Under the pieces are notes generated by a model, which had not been told where the DNA came from, did no database searches, and saw nothing but the letters and a program-made list of their open reading frames with translations. From assembly GCA_011369465.1 (NCBI GenBank), contig DRQG01000098.1, positions 1-38,961 of the forward strand: a stretch of DNA of 38,961 nt, in the 5' to 3' direction. Positions 20,704 to 26,249 of the stretch are shown piece after piece. The translations under genes and the position numbers were made by a program. Source of the stretch: Caldithrix abyssi. Lineage in GTDB: Bacteria > Calditrichota > Calditrichia > Calditrichales > Calditrichaceae. How positions within the stretch are numbered: the stretch's first letter is position 1; each line of letters starts with the position of its first letter.

Positions 20704-23094
20704 TTACTTACTCTGTTTTTTTACCTTTTCAGTTGATTGTTTGCTCTTTGTACTTTTCGTTGTTGATTTTGCTTTCGTTGCTTTAGCCGGCTGACTTGTT
20801 TTTTCCTTTTGAACCTTCTTTGTCTCTTTTGATGTTTTTGTTGACTTTTTACTTTCCTTAACCTTCGTGCTTTTTGTGACCTTTGCGGATTTTTCCGTCT
20901 GGGTTGTTTTTTGCGTTTTGACTGTTTTGGTTTTGGGCGCGGCTTTACGGGCCGGTTTTTTCTTTTTACCGTAAAATCCGCTGTCTGCCAATTCCAACAA
21001 GGCTTTGGAAGGTTTAAATCGCTTGCCAAAATCTTTTTCGAATTGCTTCAACTGATCGATTACATTTTTTACGCCTACTTTGTCCGCATAGGTCAGCAGT
21101 CCTCCGCGGAAGGGGGCAAAACCGGTACCGAAAATCATGCCCACATCCACGTCGCGCGGACGCAATGCCACACCCTCTTCCAGCACCCGCGCCGCTTCGT
21201 TAATCATAGGATACACCATGCGTTTCTGCATCAAATCTTCATCCAGTAACAGCTTATGCTTCACGTCAATCAACTCATCTACAGCCGGGTCGTACGTTTT
21301 TTCCTTACCCTGATAGCGGTAGAATCCTTTGCCGCTTTTTTTACCCAAACGACCGGCCTCAATCATACGCTCCAGAATGGGCGATTCGGCCATGCGGTCG
21401 CCCATAAAGTTTTGCAAAACTTTTGCCGCCTTGTAAGCCACATCAATGCCGACTTCGTCAAATAACTCAATCGGCCCCATGGGCATACCGAAGTTGAGCA
21501 TGGCTTTGTCGATAGCCTCGACCGTATGCCCTTCTTCCAACAAAGAGATCGCTTCCACCATGTAGGGCACCAACAAACGATTCACTAAAAATCCCGGTCC
21601 GTCTTTCACTACAATCGGTGTTTTGCCCAGTTTTTTGGCCAGATTGAACACTGTAGCCACGGCTTCGGCAGAAGTGGATTTGCCGCGAACCACTTCAATT
21701 AAAGGCATGCGGTGTACCGGATTAAAAAAGTGCATGCCGATAAAACGTTTTTTGTGTTTTAAGGCCTGGGACATTTCATCCACCCGTAAAGAAGAGGTGT
21801 TGGTCGCGATCACCGTTTGTGTATCCACGTGCTGTTCCAGTTCGGCCAGAACTTTTTTCTTAATGTTCATATCCTCCACAATGGCTTCCACCACCAGCTG
21901 GGCGTTTTTAAAGCCGGAATAATCTACCGTACCGGTAATGCGGTTCATAATCTGCTGAAATTCCAGTTTGCTAAGACGACGACGTTTCACTTTTTCCTTA
22001 AGCACTTTGGCGGCCTGTTGGAAGGCTTTGGACACCACATTGTAATCGATGTCCTTCACCCGTACAGGGATTTCTTTGGAGGCGAATAGTTGAGCGATAC
22101 CGCCTCCCATAACACCCGCTCCCAGCACACCGGCTTTGCGCACTTCCGTGCCGGTAAGCTCCTTTTTGGCCGTGCCGTTTTCCTTTTTTATTTCATCGGT
22201 CCACAGAAAGATTTGCACCAGGTTTTTGCAAATATCGGTAACGATCAACTGCCCCAGCGCGCGGGCTTCTATTTCGAAGGCTTTTTCCAGCGGCTTTCCA
22301 TAAGATTTTTTGACGACTTCCAGAGCCTTAAGCGGCGCCGGATAATGTCCGTGTGTTTTTTTAAGCACCATTTTTTCTGCTTGCGAAAAAATAATATTCC
22401 GGCCAACCGGCGTCTTTTCCAATACGATTGTGGCCGGATCGTTGGCTTTACGTCGTTTGAGGTATTTTTCGCCTATGCCGGCCAAAACTTCTTTGGCAAA
22501 TTCAAGCGCTTTTTCCAGGGCCCACTCATGCGGTATCACCTTATCCACAACGCCGTTTTTCCAGGCTCGTTTCGCGTTGTAATTACGTCCGGTTAAAATC
22601 ATGTCCAACGCACGTTGTAGCCCGATCATACGCGGCAAGCGCGAGGTGCCGCCCCAGCCGGGTAAAATACCAAGATTCACTTCGGGTAAAGCAATTTTCG
22701 TTTTGGGATGATCGGTTGCCAAACGATAATCACAGGCCAGGCTAATTTCCGTACCGCCGCCCATGCAGGCGCCGTCAATAACCGATATGGTAAGGAAGGG
22801 CAGTTCACCGAATCGTTTGAAAATTTCCTGTCCCTGACGAGCCACTTCATAACCTTTGGCTTCGTCTTTTAAATCTTTAATTTCGGCCACATCCGCACCG
22901 GCAATAAAAATTCCCGGTTTTCGGCTCATCAAAAGCAGAGCGCGTATATCGCTGCGCTTTTCCAGTTTTTCGGTTATTCCTCTCAACTCTTCCATAACTG
23001 CTGTGTTAAACTTGTTAACGCTTTCCCCTTGCAAATCAAAATACAGAACATGGATATTATCTTGTATTTCTTCTAAAAAGAACGCTTTAGACAT
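20704..23094 (-). CDS. FadJ-like enoyl-CoA hydratase / 3-hydroxyacyl-CoA dehydrogenase with Lys-rich tail
   Basis: A 796-residue bifunctional beta-oxidation enzyme. I start it at the ATG at 23094 (AAGGA site; opening MSKAFFLEEIQDNIHVLYFD); the frame upstream is repeat DNA. The crotonase domain has FIAGADVAEIKDL and CMGGGTEISLACDYR. The NAD-binding motif GVLGAGVMGGGIA is near residue 322, and GMHFFNPVHRMPLIEVV and GFLVNRLLVPY mark the dehydrogenase. It hydrates enoyl-CoA and oxidises the hydroxyacyl-CoA to 3-ketoacyl-CoA. Residues 710-796 form an unusual low-complexity Lys/Thr/Ser tail resembling histone H1 tails. It follows the thiolase gene and is interrupted from it only by a palindromic repeat. 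Confidence 0.95.
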   Translation of the reverse strand: MSKAFFLEEIQDNIHVLYFDLQGESVNKFNTAVMEELRGITEKLEKRSDIRALLLMSRKPGIFIAGADVAEIKDLKDEAKGYEVARQGQEIFKRFGELPFLTISVIDGACMGGGTEISLACDYRLATDHPKTKIALPEVNLGILPGWGGTSRLPRMIGLQRALDMILTGRNYNAKRAWKNGVVDKVIPHEWALEKALEFAKEVLAGIGEKYLKRRKANDPATIVLEKTPVGRNIIFSQAEKMVLKKTHGHYPAPLKALEVVKKSYGKPLEKAFEIEARALGQLIVTDICKNLVQIFLWTDEIKKENGTAKKELTGTEVRKAGVLGAGVMGGGIAQLFASKEIPVRVKDIDYNVVSKAFQQAAKVLKEKVKRRRLSKLEFQQIMNRITGTVDYSGFKNAQLVVEAIVEDMNIKKKVLAELEQHVDTQTVIATNTSSLRVDEMSQALKHKKRFIGMHFFNPVHRMPLIEVVRGKSTSAEAVATVFNLAKKLGKTPIVVKDGPGFLVNRLLVPYMVEAISLLEEGHTVEAIDKAMLNFGMPMGPIELFDEVGIDVAYKAAKVLQNFMGDRMAESPILERMIEAGRLGKKSGKGFYRYQGKEKTYDPAVDELIDVKHKLLLDEDLMQKRMVYPMINEAARVLEEGVALRPRDVDVGMIFGTGFAPFRGGLLTYADKVGVKNVIDQLKQFEKDFGKRFKPSKALLELADSGFYGKKKKPARKAAPKTKTVKTQKTTQTEKSAKVTKSTKVKESKKSTKTSKETKKVQKEKTSQPAKATKAKSTTKSTKSKQSTEKVKKQSK

Positions 23095-23125
23095 TGCGTT
23101 GTCCTTTTGTTTTAATATGAATTGG

Positions 23126-23281
23126 TGGTTTTTTAAAATTGATGAATTAATGCTATAGGGAGTAATGGAGTACCGGAGTGGTGGAGTATTGAAATATTGA
23201 GGTCCTTTCGGTTTCATCCTCTTCATTACTCCGGTACTCCAACACTCCAATACTCTTTTTCCCTTTATTCATCAATTCATT
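23126..23281. repeat. Nested inverted-repeat element, copy 1
   Basis: An intergenic palindromic element between the thiolase and fadJ-like genes. An inner pair, TGGAGTACCGGAGT (23166-23179) with ACTCCGGTACTCCA (23228-23241), pairs perfectly, and an outer AATTGATGAAT/ATTCATCAATT pair surrounds it. It is built of about 8-bp GGAGTANT units and recurs at about 24612 and 37604. Confidence 0.75.
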
Positions 23282-23290
23282 TCTCTTCTT

Positions 23291-24577
23291 TTATACTCTT
23301 TCCAACACAAACGCTGCCCCCTGCCCGCCGCCTACGCACAGAGTGGCCAATCCGACTTCCAGGTTATTGCGCCGCAATTCTTTGAGCAGCGTAAGCACTA
23401 GCCGCGTGGCCGAGGACCCGACCGGATGCCCCAGAGCAATAGCACCGCCGTTTACGTTTAAAATATCCTCATCAATCGCGCCCAGCGCCTTATCCATTCC
23501 CAGATATTTTTTACTTAGCGCAGCGGATTCGAAAATACGCAGATTAGCCAGCACCTGTACGGCAAAGGCTTCGTTAATTTCGATCCGCTGGAAGTCTTTC
23601 ATTTTCATTCCGGTTTGATTCAGGACCTTTTGTACGCTGTAAGCCGGGCCCAGACCCATACGCGCCGGGTCTAATCCGGCAAAAGAGAAGGCTTTTACTC
23701 TGCCCAGCGGCTGGTAGCCCAGCGCTTTGGCCTTTTCTTCCTCCATCACCAGCAGCATGGCTGCACCGTCCGTAATCTGGCTGGCATTGCCGGCGGTAAC
23801 CGTTCCGTTGCGTTTATCAAACACCGGTTTCAATTTGGCCAGCGCCTCCATCGACTGTCCATAACGAATGCCGTTATCTTTATCCACAATCGTGTCATAT
23901 TTGGGCGGCACGGGCACCGGCATCATTTCCTGTTGTAGAATACCTTCTTCCGTGGCCTTTTCCGCCCGGTTATGACTGCGCATGGAAAAGGCGTCCTGCT
24001 CTTCGCGGGTAATTTTAAACTCACGGGCCAGGATTTCGGCCGTATCTCCCATATTCAATCCGCAAAAACCGTCGGTTAAGCCCAACTGTAAACCGATGAT
24101 GGGCTTCAGGAAGGCCGGTTTCAGTTTGGTGAACAGAGATAGACGCTGTCCCAGGGTTTTTGCTTTGAACAAGGCGCTCATCCATTCGGCGGCTTCCTCA
24201 TTCCACAAAAGCGGAATGCGGGACATACTTTCCACCCCGCCGGTCATGTACGTAGTGCCGTGTCCGGCCTGAATGCGGTACCAGGCGTCGGCAATGGCCT
24301 GCATCCCGCTGGAGCAGTTTCGCTGCACCGAAAAGGCCGGCACCTCCTGCGGCACACCGGCAAACAAAGCGATATTGCGGGCAATATTGGTGGCCTCCGG
24401 CGGTTGAGCCACATTGCCCACAATAACCTCATCCAAATCTTTACCGTCCATGTTCAGGCGTTCCAGCAATTCTTTGAGCACGATTGCGCCTAATTGCTGC
24501 GCCGGTATATCTTTAAAATCCGTATCAAACTTGACGTACGGAGTACGCAGACCGTCAACGATTACCACGTTTTTCAT
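23291..24577 (-). CDS. Acetyl-CoA C-acyltransferase (thiolase)
   Basis: A 428-residue thiolase that cleaves 3-ketoacyl-CoA to acetyl-CoA and a shortened acyl-CoA. Catalytic residues are visible: Cys88 in QRNCSSGMQA, His384 in GGAIALGHPVGSSATR and Cys414 in ATLCVGGGQGAAF. The opening VVIVDGLRTPYVKFDTDFKDI and the length resemble FadI-type partners of the trifunctional enzyme rather than short biosynthetic thiolases. It lies between the TetR regulator and the fadJ-like gene on the same strand, each junction occupied by a nested palindromic repeat. Confidence 0.95.
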   Translation of the reverse strand: MKNVVIVDGLRTPYVKFDTDFKDIPAQQLGAIVLKELLERLNMDGKDLDEVIVGNVAQPPEATNIARNIALFAGVPQEVPAFSVQRNCSSGMQAIADAWYRIQAGHGTTYMTGGVESMSRIPLLWNEEAAEWMSALFKAKTLGQRLSLFTKLKPAFLKPIIGLQLGLTDGFCGLNMGDTAEILAREFKITREEQDAFSMRSHNRAEKATEEGILQQEMMPVPVPPKYDTIVDKDNGIRYGQSMEALAKLKPVFDKRNGTVTAGNASQITDGAAMLLVMEEEKAKALGYQPLGRVKAFSFAGLDPARMGLGPAYSVQKVLNQTGMKMKDFQRIEINEAFAVQVLANLRIFESAALSKKYLGMDKALGAIDEDILNVNGGAIALGHPVGSSATRLVLTLLKELRRNNLEVGLATLCVGGGQGAAFVLERV

Positions 24578-24611
24578 GTTTTCTCCAGTAAAATATGTTT
24601 AAAAATATTAT

Positions 24612-24790
24612 GAACGATGGTGAATGAATTATTGAATTGGTGGAGTGTTGGAGTATCGGAGTAATGTAGTATTGAAGGTGGAAGCATTTTTTGGGTATTC
24701 TTTATCCAAACGACATAAATGTCGTTTTACAATACTCCAGCACTCCAGTATTCCATTTTCATCACACCATCAATTCACCAATTCATTTTT
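24612..24790. repeat. Nested inverted-repeat element, copy 2
   Basis: The same kind of element as at 23126: outer arms of TGAATGAATTATTGAATTGG type against CCAATTCATT, inner arms of GGAGTGTTGGAGT type against ACTCCAGCACTCCAG. Between the arms lies a separate hairpin AAACGACA-TAAA-TGTCGTTT (about 24712-24731). It occupies the whole gap between the TetR and thiolase genes. Confidence 0.7.
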
Positions 24791-24803
24791 GCTTTCTCTT
24801 TTC

Positions 24804-25391
24804 TCAGCTGGCCAACAGCCCGTCCACAATGGTTCGGGAGAGTTCTTGAGAAGCTTGCTCCAGAGAATATTTGTCGTCTGCGCCCAAAATCCATTGCCGC
24901 GCCACTTCATCAATGGCGCCAAATATCATCAACTTAATAATATCGGTATGCAACGTCGGACGAAAAAAACCTTCCCGCTTTCCTTCATCGACAATTCCCG
25001 CAATAATGTTGAGATAATCCAGAAATTTTTGATTGTGATAATCCTTTAAAAACTTGGCCGATTGCCGCAGTTCCACCTGAAAAACTTCCGCCAATTGCTG
25101 ATCCTCTTCGATAAGGGTGAAATACACATGGATAAATGTTTTCAGTTTTTCAATAGGATCATGAATATTTTGAAGACCGGCCGCAAAGCGGTTGAGGATA
25201 TGATCCATTTTGTCTTCGAAAAGATTGATAAGCAGATCGTCTTTGTTCTTAAAATATAGATAGATGGTTCCGTCAGCCACGCCGGCTGCCTTAGCCACAT
25301 CGTTTACTTTGGCGTTATAAAATCCTTTTTTAGCAAATACTTTTACCGCCGCTTCAATAATAGCTTCCCGTTTGCTGTTTTTTTGTTTCAT
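24804..25391 (-). CDS. TetR-family regulator, FadR-like
   Basis: A 195-residue repressor. I choose the ATG at 25391 because AAGGA lies directly upstream; the next upstream ATG (25412) has no ribosome binding site and abuts the operator. The N-terminal helix-turn-helix runs KREAIIEAAVKVFAKKGFYNAKVNDVAKAAGVADGTIYLYFKNKDDLL. The rest is the helical ligand domain. Length and the operator match the Bacillus FadR type, which releases DNA on binding long-chain acyl-CoA. Downstream on the same strand are the thiolase and fadJ-like genes, so control of fatty-acid degradation is the likely role. Confidence 0.9.
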   Translation of the reverse strand: MKQKNSKREAIIEAAVKVFAKKGFYNAKVNDVAKAAGVADGTIYLYFKNKDDLLINLFEDKMDHILNRFAAGLQNIHDPIEKLKTFIHVYFTLIEEDQQLAEVFQVELRQSAKFLKDYHNQKFLDYLNIIAGIVDEGKREGFFRPTLHTDIIKLMIFGAIDEVARQWILGADDKYSLEQASQELSRTIVDGLLAS

Positions 25392-25414
25392 TTCTTCCTT
25401 GTCGATGTACATTA

Positions 25415-25459
25415 TGAATGAACGTTCATTCAATATAAAAAAATTTATTCCTTTTTCAA
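25415..25459 (-). promoter_or_regulatory. Promoter and FadR-type operator of the TetR gene
   Basis: On minus, TTGAAA (25459-25454) and TATATT (25437-25432) are 16 bases apart. The perfect 18-bp palindrome TGAATGAACGTTCATTCA (25415-25432) starts at the last -10 base and covers the expected transcription start. It matches the Bacillus FadR operator pattern TGAATGA-N4-TCATTCA, known to me from the literature. This indicates autorepression. Confidence 0.85.
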
Positions 25460-25517
25460 AGCGGAAATTTGAGAAAATGAGGGTAATTTGAGGTTTTCGG
25501 ATATGGTTCATAGAAAT

Positions 25518-25547
25518 AAAAAAGCCCCCGAATTACCTTCGGGGGCT
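25518..25547 (-). terminator. Intrinsic terminator of the small RNA
   Basis: On minus, a perfect 10-bp stem AGCCCCCGAA/TTCGGGGGCT (25547-25538 with 25532-25523), loop of 5, followed by six T residues. Confidence 0.92.
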
Positions 25548-25703
25548 CTACGCTGTCGGAGTCCGGTTCAACCCGGTGCTAACGAGTCGTACCGGAGGCT
25601 CCTATCATACTTCGACTACTAATAGGATCACCTCCTTCCTTCGGGGCATCCGTCATCGCACCCGAAACTTCCCCGGCCAAATTCCCGGTGCAGCACTTGA
25701 GAC
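25518..25703 (-). ncRNA. Structured small RNA of about 186 nt, type unresolved (6S-like size)
   Basis: It is bounded by a consensus promoter (25710-25738) and a strong terminator (25518-25547) on minus, and it has no convincing reading frame. The transcript can form several hairpins: CCGG/CCGG near the 5' end, TTCGGG/CCCGAA, GGAGG-UCCUAU/AUAGGA-CCUCC, and a closing pairing of the 5' CUC...GCUG with the 3' CAGC...GAG ahead of the terminator. It contains AAGGAGGTGATCC, the exact complement of the universal 16S rRNA 3' tail. Size and end pairing would suit 6S RNA, but I cannot confirm that family. It does not show the SRP RNA, tmRNA or T-box signatures. A regulatory leader of the TetR gene is less likely because that gene has its own promoter. 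Confidence 0.75.
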
Positions 25704-25709
25704 ATGAAC

Positions 25710-25738
25710 ATTATACGTAATCCCGTATAAAATGTCAA
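25710..25738 (-). promoter_or_regulatory. Consensus sigma-70 promoter of the small RNA
   Basis: On minus, a perfect TTGACA (25738-25733) and a perfect TATAAT (25715-25710) are exactly 17 bases apart. Transcription should start about seven bases downstream, near 25703. This is the strongest promoter sequence in the window. Confidence 0.9.
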
Positions 25739-25919: not shown

Positions 25920-26124
25920 GACAAGTTCAGTACGGCTCGTTATGTCATTCCGAACTTGATTCGGAATCCCGACTTTGGTTGTTTGGATGTTGAAACAAGT
26001 TCAACATGACAGGTACGTTTTTCCATCCCGCCTCGGTGGGATCAGAATCCCTTCTTCTAAAACATGGGATGCTGAAACGCGTTCAGCATGACTCGTTACG
26101 TCATTCCGGGCTTGTTCCGGAATC
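25920..26124. repeat. Array of palindromic intergenic repeats
   Basis: The stretch contains two hairpin types in several copies: ATTCCGAA-CTTGA-TTCGGAAT (25947-25967) and its relative at 26103-26123; ATGTTGAA-ACAAG-TTCAACAT (25987-26007) and ATGCTGAA-ACGCG-TTCAGCAT (26069-26089). A degenerate third copy lies around 25913-25945. A hairpin ATCCCGC/GTGGGAT lies between them at about 26025. No gene is apparent between 25740 and 26249. Confidence 0.75.
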
Positions 26125-26249
26125 CATAACTTCAGAAGAGCCTGAATCAAGCCTGTCCTGGCGACAGGCCAGGGTTCAGGGTAACGTTTTATTTGCAATA
26201 TCGTTTTTAGAGTGTAGTTCGTAATAGAATCTTTTAAAAGGTATGCCCA

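Follow-up and report, generated by a model that had tools for sequence, protein, structure and literature searches.

Described RNAs and genes with comparable features

AUU and AUC are rare as start codons in bacteria, and codons of the AUU/AUC/AUA type are policed by initiation factor IF3; expression of infC from its AUU codon, for example, is IF3-dependent. Very short reading frames are also found in dual-function small RNAs and leader peptides, of which Spot 42/SpfP and TnaC are examples. The GTC start codon of sigR in Streptomyces is another non-canonical start codon under translational control by IF3 (PMC5472188). The P6 element of OLE RNA, an RNA of approximately 600 nt in Bacillota, is a mimic of the duplex between Shine-Dalgarno (SD) and anti-SD sequences that has been proposed to bind ribosomal protein bS21 (PMC12054373). 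CC2171 (RF01867) of Alphaproteobacteria is listed by Rfam as a non-coding sRNA.

The locus described here, from Caldithrix abyssi, is probably a free-standing mini-gene, in which a structured mini-mRNA would encode a peptide of approximately 14 residues and a 13-nt complement to 16S rRNA would act as an extended, perfect SD sequence. It resembles sigR and infC in having a poor start codon, from which IF3-dependent expression may follow, but those are full-length protein genes, whereas the mini-gene has a mini-ORF, preceded by an SD that is maximal and foldable. Like the dual-function RNAs and leader peptides, it is a short transcript with a tiny ORF and alternative hairpins that overlap the ORF; unlike them, it is mostly without a regulated downstream gene, spans several phyla, and has the ORF and SD as its most conserved parts. 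One of its hairpins, P2, is an internal duplex that mimics SD:anti-SD pairing as OLE P6 does, but OLE mimics the anti-SD, whereas the mini-gene offers the full complement of the 16S tail together with an ORF. The family is unnamed and absent from Rfam, and was found in Calditrichota, KSB1, Nitrospinota, marine Gammaproteobacteria and scattered other groups; no description of the RNA was found in the open-access literature. Annotation pipelines miss it because of the shortness of the ORF and its usual start at AUU, AUC or AUA, and because Rfam has no model for the RNA.

The locus and its occurrence in other genomes

The window, which is the whole stretch of 38,961 nt that was analysed (contig DRQG01000098.1), carries the mini-gene on the minus strand between a fatty-acid oxidation group with a TetR regulator and a divergent gene. 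A sigma-70 promoter of the form TTGACA-N17-TATAAT (25738-25710, minus strand) matches at 12 of 12 positions, with its -35 element (6/6) at 25733..25738 and, after a 17-nt spacer, its -10 element at 25710..25715. An intrinsic terminator on the same strand (25521..25549) has a stem of 12 pairs followed by a T-rich tail, and the transcript predicted from promoter and terminator would be approximately 186 nt long (25518..25703, minus strand). Its computed fold has an energy of -76.7 kcal/mol, compared with -63.4 kcal/mol in shuffles (z -2.98), so that the structured RNA between promoter and terminator that had been described in the initial annotation is upheld. The fatty-acid oxidation group (20704-25511 of the window) comprises enoyl-CoA hydratase/3-hydroxyacyl-CoA dehydrogenase, thiolase and a YsiA-like TetR regulator. 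On the other side, upstream of the mini-gene, positions 25930-26180 contain imperfect repeats of the types GTCATTCCGGGCTTGTTCCGGAATCC and TTCAGCATGAC, which look like dispersed intergenic repeats.

At gathering scores, a search of the whole window with the Rfam models found one tRNA only and no match to 6S, SRP, OLE or any other family; ARAGORN found no tmRNA in the window, and relatives from other phyla gave no Rfam match over the mini-gene RNA. The covariance search suggested with the initial annotation therefore leaves the RNA explained by no Rfam family, CC2171 being sub-threshold. The first of the identities offered there, a 6S-like RNA, is abandoned for lack of an Rfam match and in favour of a reading in which the tract is the SD of an ORF of approximately 14 codons. 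Another, a member of an unknown family, is retained insofar as no Rfam family accounts for the RNA, but the conserved frame leads us to read it as a coding mini-gene.

Copies were recognized by DNA similarity in the same family, order and class. An exact pattern consisting of the tract and a CCUCC-type arm matched 96 stretches among 84,980 species, mostly of Nitrospinota and marine Gammaproteobacteria (Pseudomonadales, OM182, K189A, Pseudohongiella), with further carriers in Calditrichota, KSB1, Chitinivibrionales, Rhodothermaceae, Lentisphaerae and Bacteroidetes. The same pattern had 0 matches in viral contigs, and an origin from phage or mobile elements was rejected on this basis. A covariance model (R1), which was trained on exact-tract copies and favours conserved copies, found the mini-gene in 10 of 40 genomes of the Calditrichota class, 41 of 60 Nitrospinota genomes, 18 of 82 genomes of another phylum (that of genome G229, where one match has the coordinates of the KSB1 record L067), and 5 of 368 sampled genomes of a class taken to be Gammaproteobacteria from a LysR-family protein match. 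One of these five loci, L175, is doubtful, part of its tract being missing, and is still included in the counts given below for P1, tract deviations and the ORF; a weak match to the model, L172, was dropped because it sits in an apparent coding region. Two copies in one genome were observed in Nitrospinota (G787 and G802; L089 and L095). Most copies have a promoter-like sequence of similar type to that of the window directly upstream, and the anatomy shared by the family comprises its own promoter, the hairpin P1 with a likely pseudoknot, the tract, the alternative helices P2 and P3, and a terminator.

The 16S-complementary tract and the short reading frame

The tract AAGGAGGUGAUCC (25625..25637, minus strand) is complementary to the full 3' tail of 16S rRNA. 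As DNA (AAGGAGGTGATCC, 25637-25625) it is present in a single copy in the 4.31-Mb assembly, with 0 matches for a reversed-pattern control, which agrees with the 13-nt complement noted in the initial annotation. A match to the 16S tail was not found in this assembly's own 16S gene (absent or masked), and the tail was taken from a genome of the same family (G006: ...GGATCACCTCCTTTCT), on which the complement grows to 16 nt when a single G-U pair is counted. All ten Calditrichota copies have R, G and R at positions -1, -2 and -3, which extends the complementarity into the UUUCU of the tail as taken from G006.

The invariance of the tract in copies found by the exact pattern proves nothing, these having been picked for an exact tract. 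Among the 64 matches to R1 the tract is exact in 43, and of the deviating cells, gaps aside, 23 keep a G-U pair with 16S rRNA (A-to-G or C-to-U) and eight do not; the flanks of the tract have 101 transitions and 83 transversions. The tract is conserved, the point on which a comparison of homologues had been proposed in the initial annotation, and its deviations are mostly compatible with G-U pairing.

One base 3' of the tract begins a conserved short ORF that had gone unnoticed in the initial annotation (25579..25623, minus strand; AUU start, peptide ISSRSMIGASGTTR, UAG stop). In the set of 120 copies (of 124) that passed a loose filter for an S-containing short frame, an initiator-class codon occupies this position in 116 and is shifted by 1-2 nt in four, with a gap of 7 nt between GGAGG and the start codon; since the sequences are related, these counts of ORF and tract are not independent events. 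The ORF usually has 13 or 14 codons, and a stop at codon 13-16 closes its frame in 117 of the 120 copies. For the two remaining frames the numbers are 11 and 0, and dinucleotide shuffles give a mean of 13.5 (maximum 19). Stop codons interchange (UAA 57, UAG 56, UGA 7), as do start codons (AUC 52, AUU 28, AUG 21, UUG 14, AUA 4, GUG 1).

The peptides have the consensus (I/M/L)-x-S-x-S-x-x-G-A-S-G-x-x-(C/R), with G in 114, A in 111 and S in 119 of 119 copies at the GAS motif. Serine is encoded by AGY and UCN codons in 71 and 23 copies at one position and in 34 and 50 at another, an interchange that requires two base changes and so speaks for selection at the level of the amino acid. In the frame of the ORF the ratio pN/pS is 0.85, while the two other frames give 1.37 and 1.00; as these bases are also under constraint from RNA pairing, the contrast is weak. 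By comparison of copies, then, the RNA has the conserved frame with SD, start and stop codons expected of a small-protein mRNA, and the tract is best read as the longest natural SD.

An AUU, AUC or AUA codon would be the start in approximately 70% of the copies (84/120). Of these 84, 45 have an in-frame stop upstream and no AUG, GUG or UUG in the interval, which leaves the near-cognate codon as the sole available initiator. In some members, including that of the window, the open frame extends back to an AUG in P1, but this AUG is not conserved; a start of the ORF upstream in P1 was rejected, as the upstream stop lies at near-random distances and the loci L140 and L153 have an intervening in-frame stop. 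A start at the GUG inside the tract was also rejected, as that frame (frame 2) closes at once.

The same features could fit a dual-function or decoy RNA. Its ORF would be translated and the peptide would be a by-product, while repeated initiation and quick termination would serve to occupy free 30S subunits or initiation factors, or to sense them. A perfect SD of 13-16 nt with a predicted duplex energy of -23 kcal/mol on the 16S tail, a strong promoter, a very short ORF and the lack of a conserved neighbour gene would all suit such a decoy, but the selection visible on the peptide in its serine codon switching and GAS motif speaks against it, and we consider it rather unlikely on its own; a combined role would be compatible with the evidence. 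We infer that function resides in the peptide and not in the process of its translation.

A trans-acting, non-coding antisense RNA that blocks initiation or parks 30S subunits, with an incidental ORF, is improbable. The tract does span the whole single-stranded tail with mostly G-U-compatible deviations, its complement extends into UUUCU in 10/10 Calditrichota copies, and its predicted opening cost is low (median 3.7 kcal/mol, compared with 11.5 kcal/mol for the remaining 13-mers of these RNAs), but a non-coding antisense RNA would account neither for the frame with its interchangeable stops and its serine codons nor for an initiator-class codon at a fixed distance. Of the ribosome-directed regulator that had been suggested, what survives is a tract aimed at the 16S tail, which would recruit ribosomes for translation of its own RNA rather than act as an antisense.

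Alternative pairings around the tract

The 5' part of the mini-mRNA forms hairpin P1, whose strands (25679..25691 and 25658..25670, minus strand) are defined by model R1 and by covariation. In the 64-sequence set, double changes occur at all 13 pairs, and cells with double changes number 274, compared with 44-72 when the partners are slid, which is the fair control for alignments that were fitted to the model. Covariation of the stems, which had been proposed as a check on the RNA, is therefore evident for P1. The P1 loop contains CGGGG (25671..25675, minus strand; CAGGG in most relatives) as the proposed 5' strand of a pseudoknot, the 3' strand of which would be CCCCG (25642..25646, minus strand; CCCUG in most relatives), so that the window has a C-G pair where most relatives have A-U or G-U. 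CAGGG and CCCUG are complementary in almost all copies, which suggests the pseudoknot, although their near-lack of variation limits proof; pairing of the P1 loop with the downstream strand is likely, mainly from this conserved complementarity.

The strand GGAGCCUCCG may pair either back onto the tract (P2, state A) or forward with a segment beyond the ORF (P3, state B), the two being mutually exclusive. The P2 strand that hides the tract, AUAGGAGCCUCC (codons 7-10 of the ORF; 25594..25605, minus strand), was recognized from fold and alignment; it overlaps the 5' strand of P3, GGAGCCUCCGGU (25591..25602, minus strand), whose partner ACCGGACUCC (25558..25567, minus strand) lies 3' of the stop codon; both P3 strands come from pairing analyses. 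Mean predicted P3 pairing is -20.9 kcal/mol with a member's own segment, -17.3 kcal/mol with the segments of other members and -13.1 kcal/mol with shuffled segments, and distal P3 positions present up to six standard pair types per position. In folds computed without the pseudoknot, state B is more stable in 77 of 90 copies, with a mean margin of 4.1 kcal/mol, whereas in the window RNA the two states are nearly equal and state A is slightly favoured; addition of the 16S tail GGAUCACCUCCUU, also without the pseudoknot, is predicted to make the window RNA adopt state B, its energy going from -76.7 to -92.5 kcal/mol. Sequestration of the tract by a downstream arm, as proposed in the initial annotation, is possible through pairing with GGAGCCUCC, but is only one of two competing folds, the tract-exposing fold being predicted stabler in most relatives. 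Overall, the comparison of copies supports the mini-gene family, P1, the overlap of P2 with P3, and the reading frame.

In the mechanism proposed for the mini-gene, a strong sigma-70 promoter would drive an RNA in which a 5' hairpin with a probable pseudoknot precedes the SD. Pairing of the G-A-S codons back onto the SD would turn translation off, and their pairing with the sequence 3' of the stop codon would free the SD and turn translation on, the 16S tail capturing the SD in the P3 fold only. The long SD would compensate for the poor start codon, which is AUU, AUC or AUA in most members, and output may respond to initiation stringency, that is, to the level or activity of IF3. A product of the type fMet-SSRSMIGASGTTR would be expected. 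More tentatively, and with greater odds against it than for it, the family may constitute a hitherto undescribed translation-initiation regulator across phyla: a free-standing, bistable mini-mRNA that buries or exposes the longest possible SD before a deliberately poor start codon, with a conserved 14-residue peptide whose synthesis reports free 30S subunits and IF3 stringency, and with CC2171 as a divergent branch. If translated, the mini-gene would be a widespread conserved micropeptide gene with systematic near-cognate starts and a built-in SD switch, and would offer a natural setting in which to study IF3 discrimination, extended SD pairing and the sensing of free 30S subunits.

Alternatively, since P2 is an internal SD:anti-SD duplex, OLE provides a precedent and bS21 is encoded in 38 of 40 genomes of the class (in two copies in G000, the genome of the window), the RNA might act as a duplex mimic to which a ribosomal protein, for instance bS21, binds. 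This is very improbable: two gammaproteobacterial loci, L176 and L177, keep the tract (with one change in L177, at its first base) and the ORF but have lost the P2 strand, and such binding would not explain the ORF. The two bS21 (Ribosomal_S21) genes of G000 are located at C105:2293-2457 and C109:70272-70418, and one is clearly more divergent. Two bS21 genes were also observed in many relatives, including five of five mini-gene carriers and five of ten non-carriers of family f1.

Genomic neighbourhood

Genes adjacent to the mini-gene differ by lineage, which marks it as a free-standing unit. In Gammaproteobacteria they include a LysR-family gene and, on the opposite strand, what we take from its sequence to be an Lhr-like helicase; others are a gene presumed from sequence to be DUF2007-like, a PNPOx-like gene, a lipoprotein-like gene in Nitrospinota, a UbiE-like methyltransferase at L153 and TetR in the window, and no conserved same-strand downstream gene was found across the lineages compared. 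A leader or attenuator of the TetR-family gene downstream can be practically dismissed, for although a TetR_C_4 gene on the same strand adjoins the terminator end of the mini-gene in the window, the neighbours are different in every lineage (LysR-family, Lhr-like helicase, UbiE-like methyltransferase).

Relationship to CC2171

The initial annotation knew of no common small RNA defined by such a tract; this has to be revised, as CC2171 has such a tract, and an ORF at the same spacing. In a permissive search CC2171 scored 18.9 bits in the window, anchored on the tract, and 23-31 bits against five relatives, all far below its gathering cut-off of 75, and several family members gave weak full-length matches (E 0.004-0.4). 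Both the window and CC2171 have the AAAGGAGGUGAUCC tract and, one nucleotide further on, the start codon of a short ORF. The CC2171 tract has the form AAAGGAGGUG(A/G)UC(C/U), followed after one nucleotide by a GUG or AUG codon, and a terminator is present. Alphaproteobacterial CC2171-like loci on plasmids or chromids have only G-U-compatible changes in the tract, and five of six CC2171-like loci have an ORF of 24-26 codons beginning VSHC or MSHC, with ASG near the end in three of those five. In contrast to the mini-gene, CC2171 has this longer ORF, its tract near the 5' end apparently without P1 or a pseudoknot upstream, and a closing stem CAUUGUC/GACAAUG; this architecture was not found in the window, where P1 and the pseudoknot are followed by P2/P3. 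By virtue of the tract, the spacing and an ASG-ending ORF, CC2171 is probably a relative or an analogue of the mini-gene. Homology with the mini-gene family is plausible from these sequence features, although by score the two are not the same Rfam family, and CC2171, though named an sRNA, may be a coding RNA.

Among the other matches to CC2171, L222 and L226 appear to be unrelated; L230 is the end of a 16S rRNA gene. L223 (G194 C2:110608-110708), with GAGGAGGTGGTCC followed by A-GTG-TTATCTAG..., is a possible divergent relative of CC2171 or of the mini-gene family. At L235, on plasmid pSM-3 of Skermanella mucosa, a CC2171-like locus is located directly downstream of hflX, which encodes a ribosome-associated GTPase.
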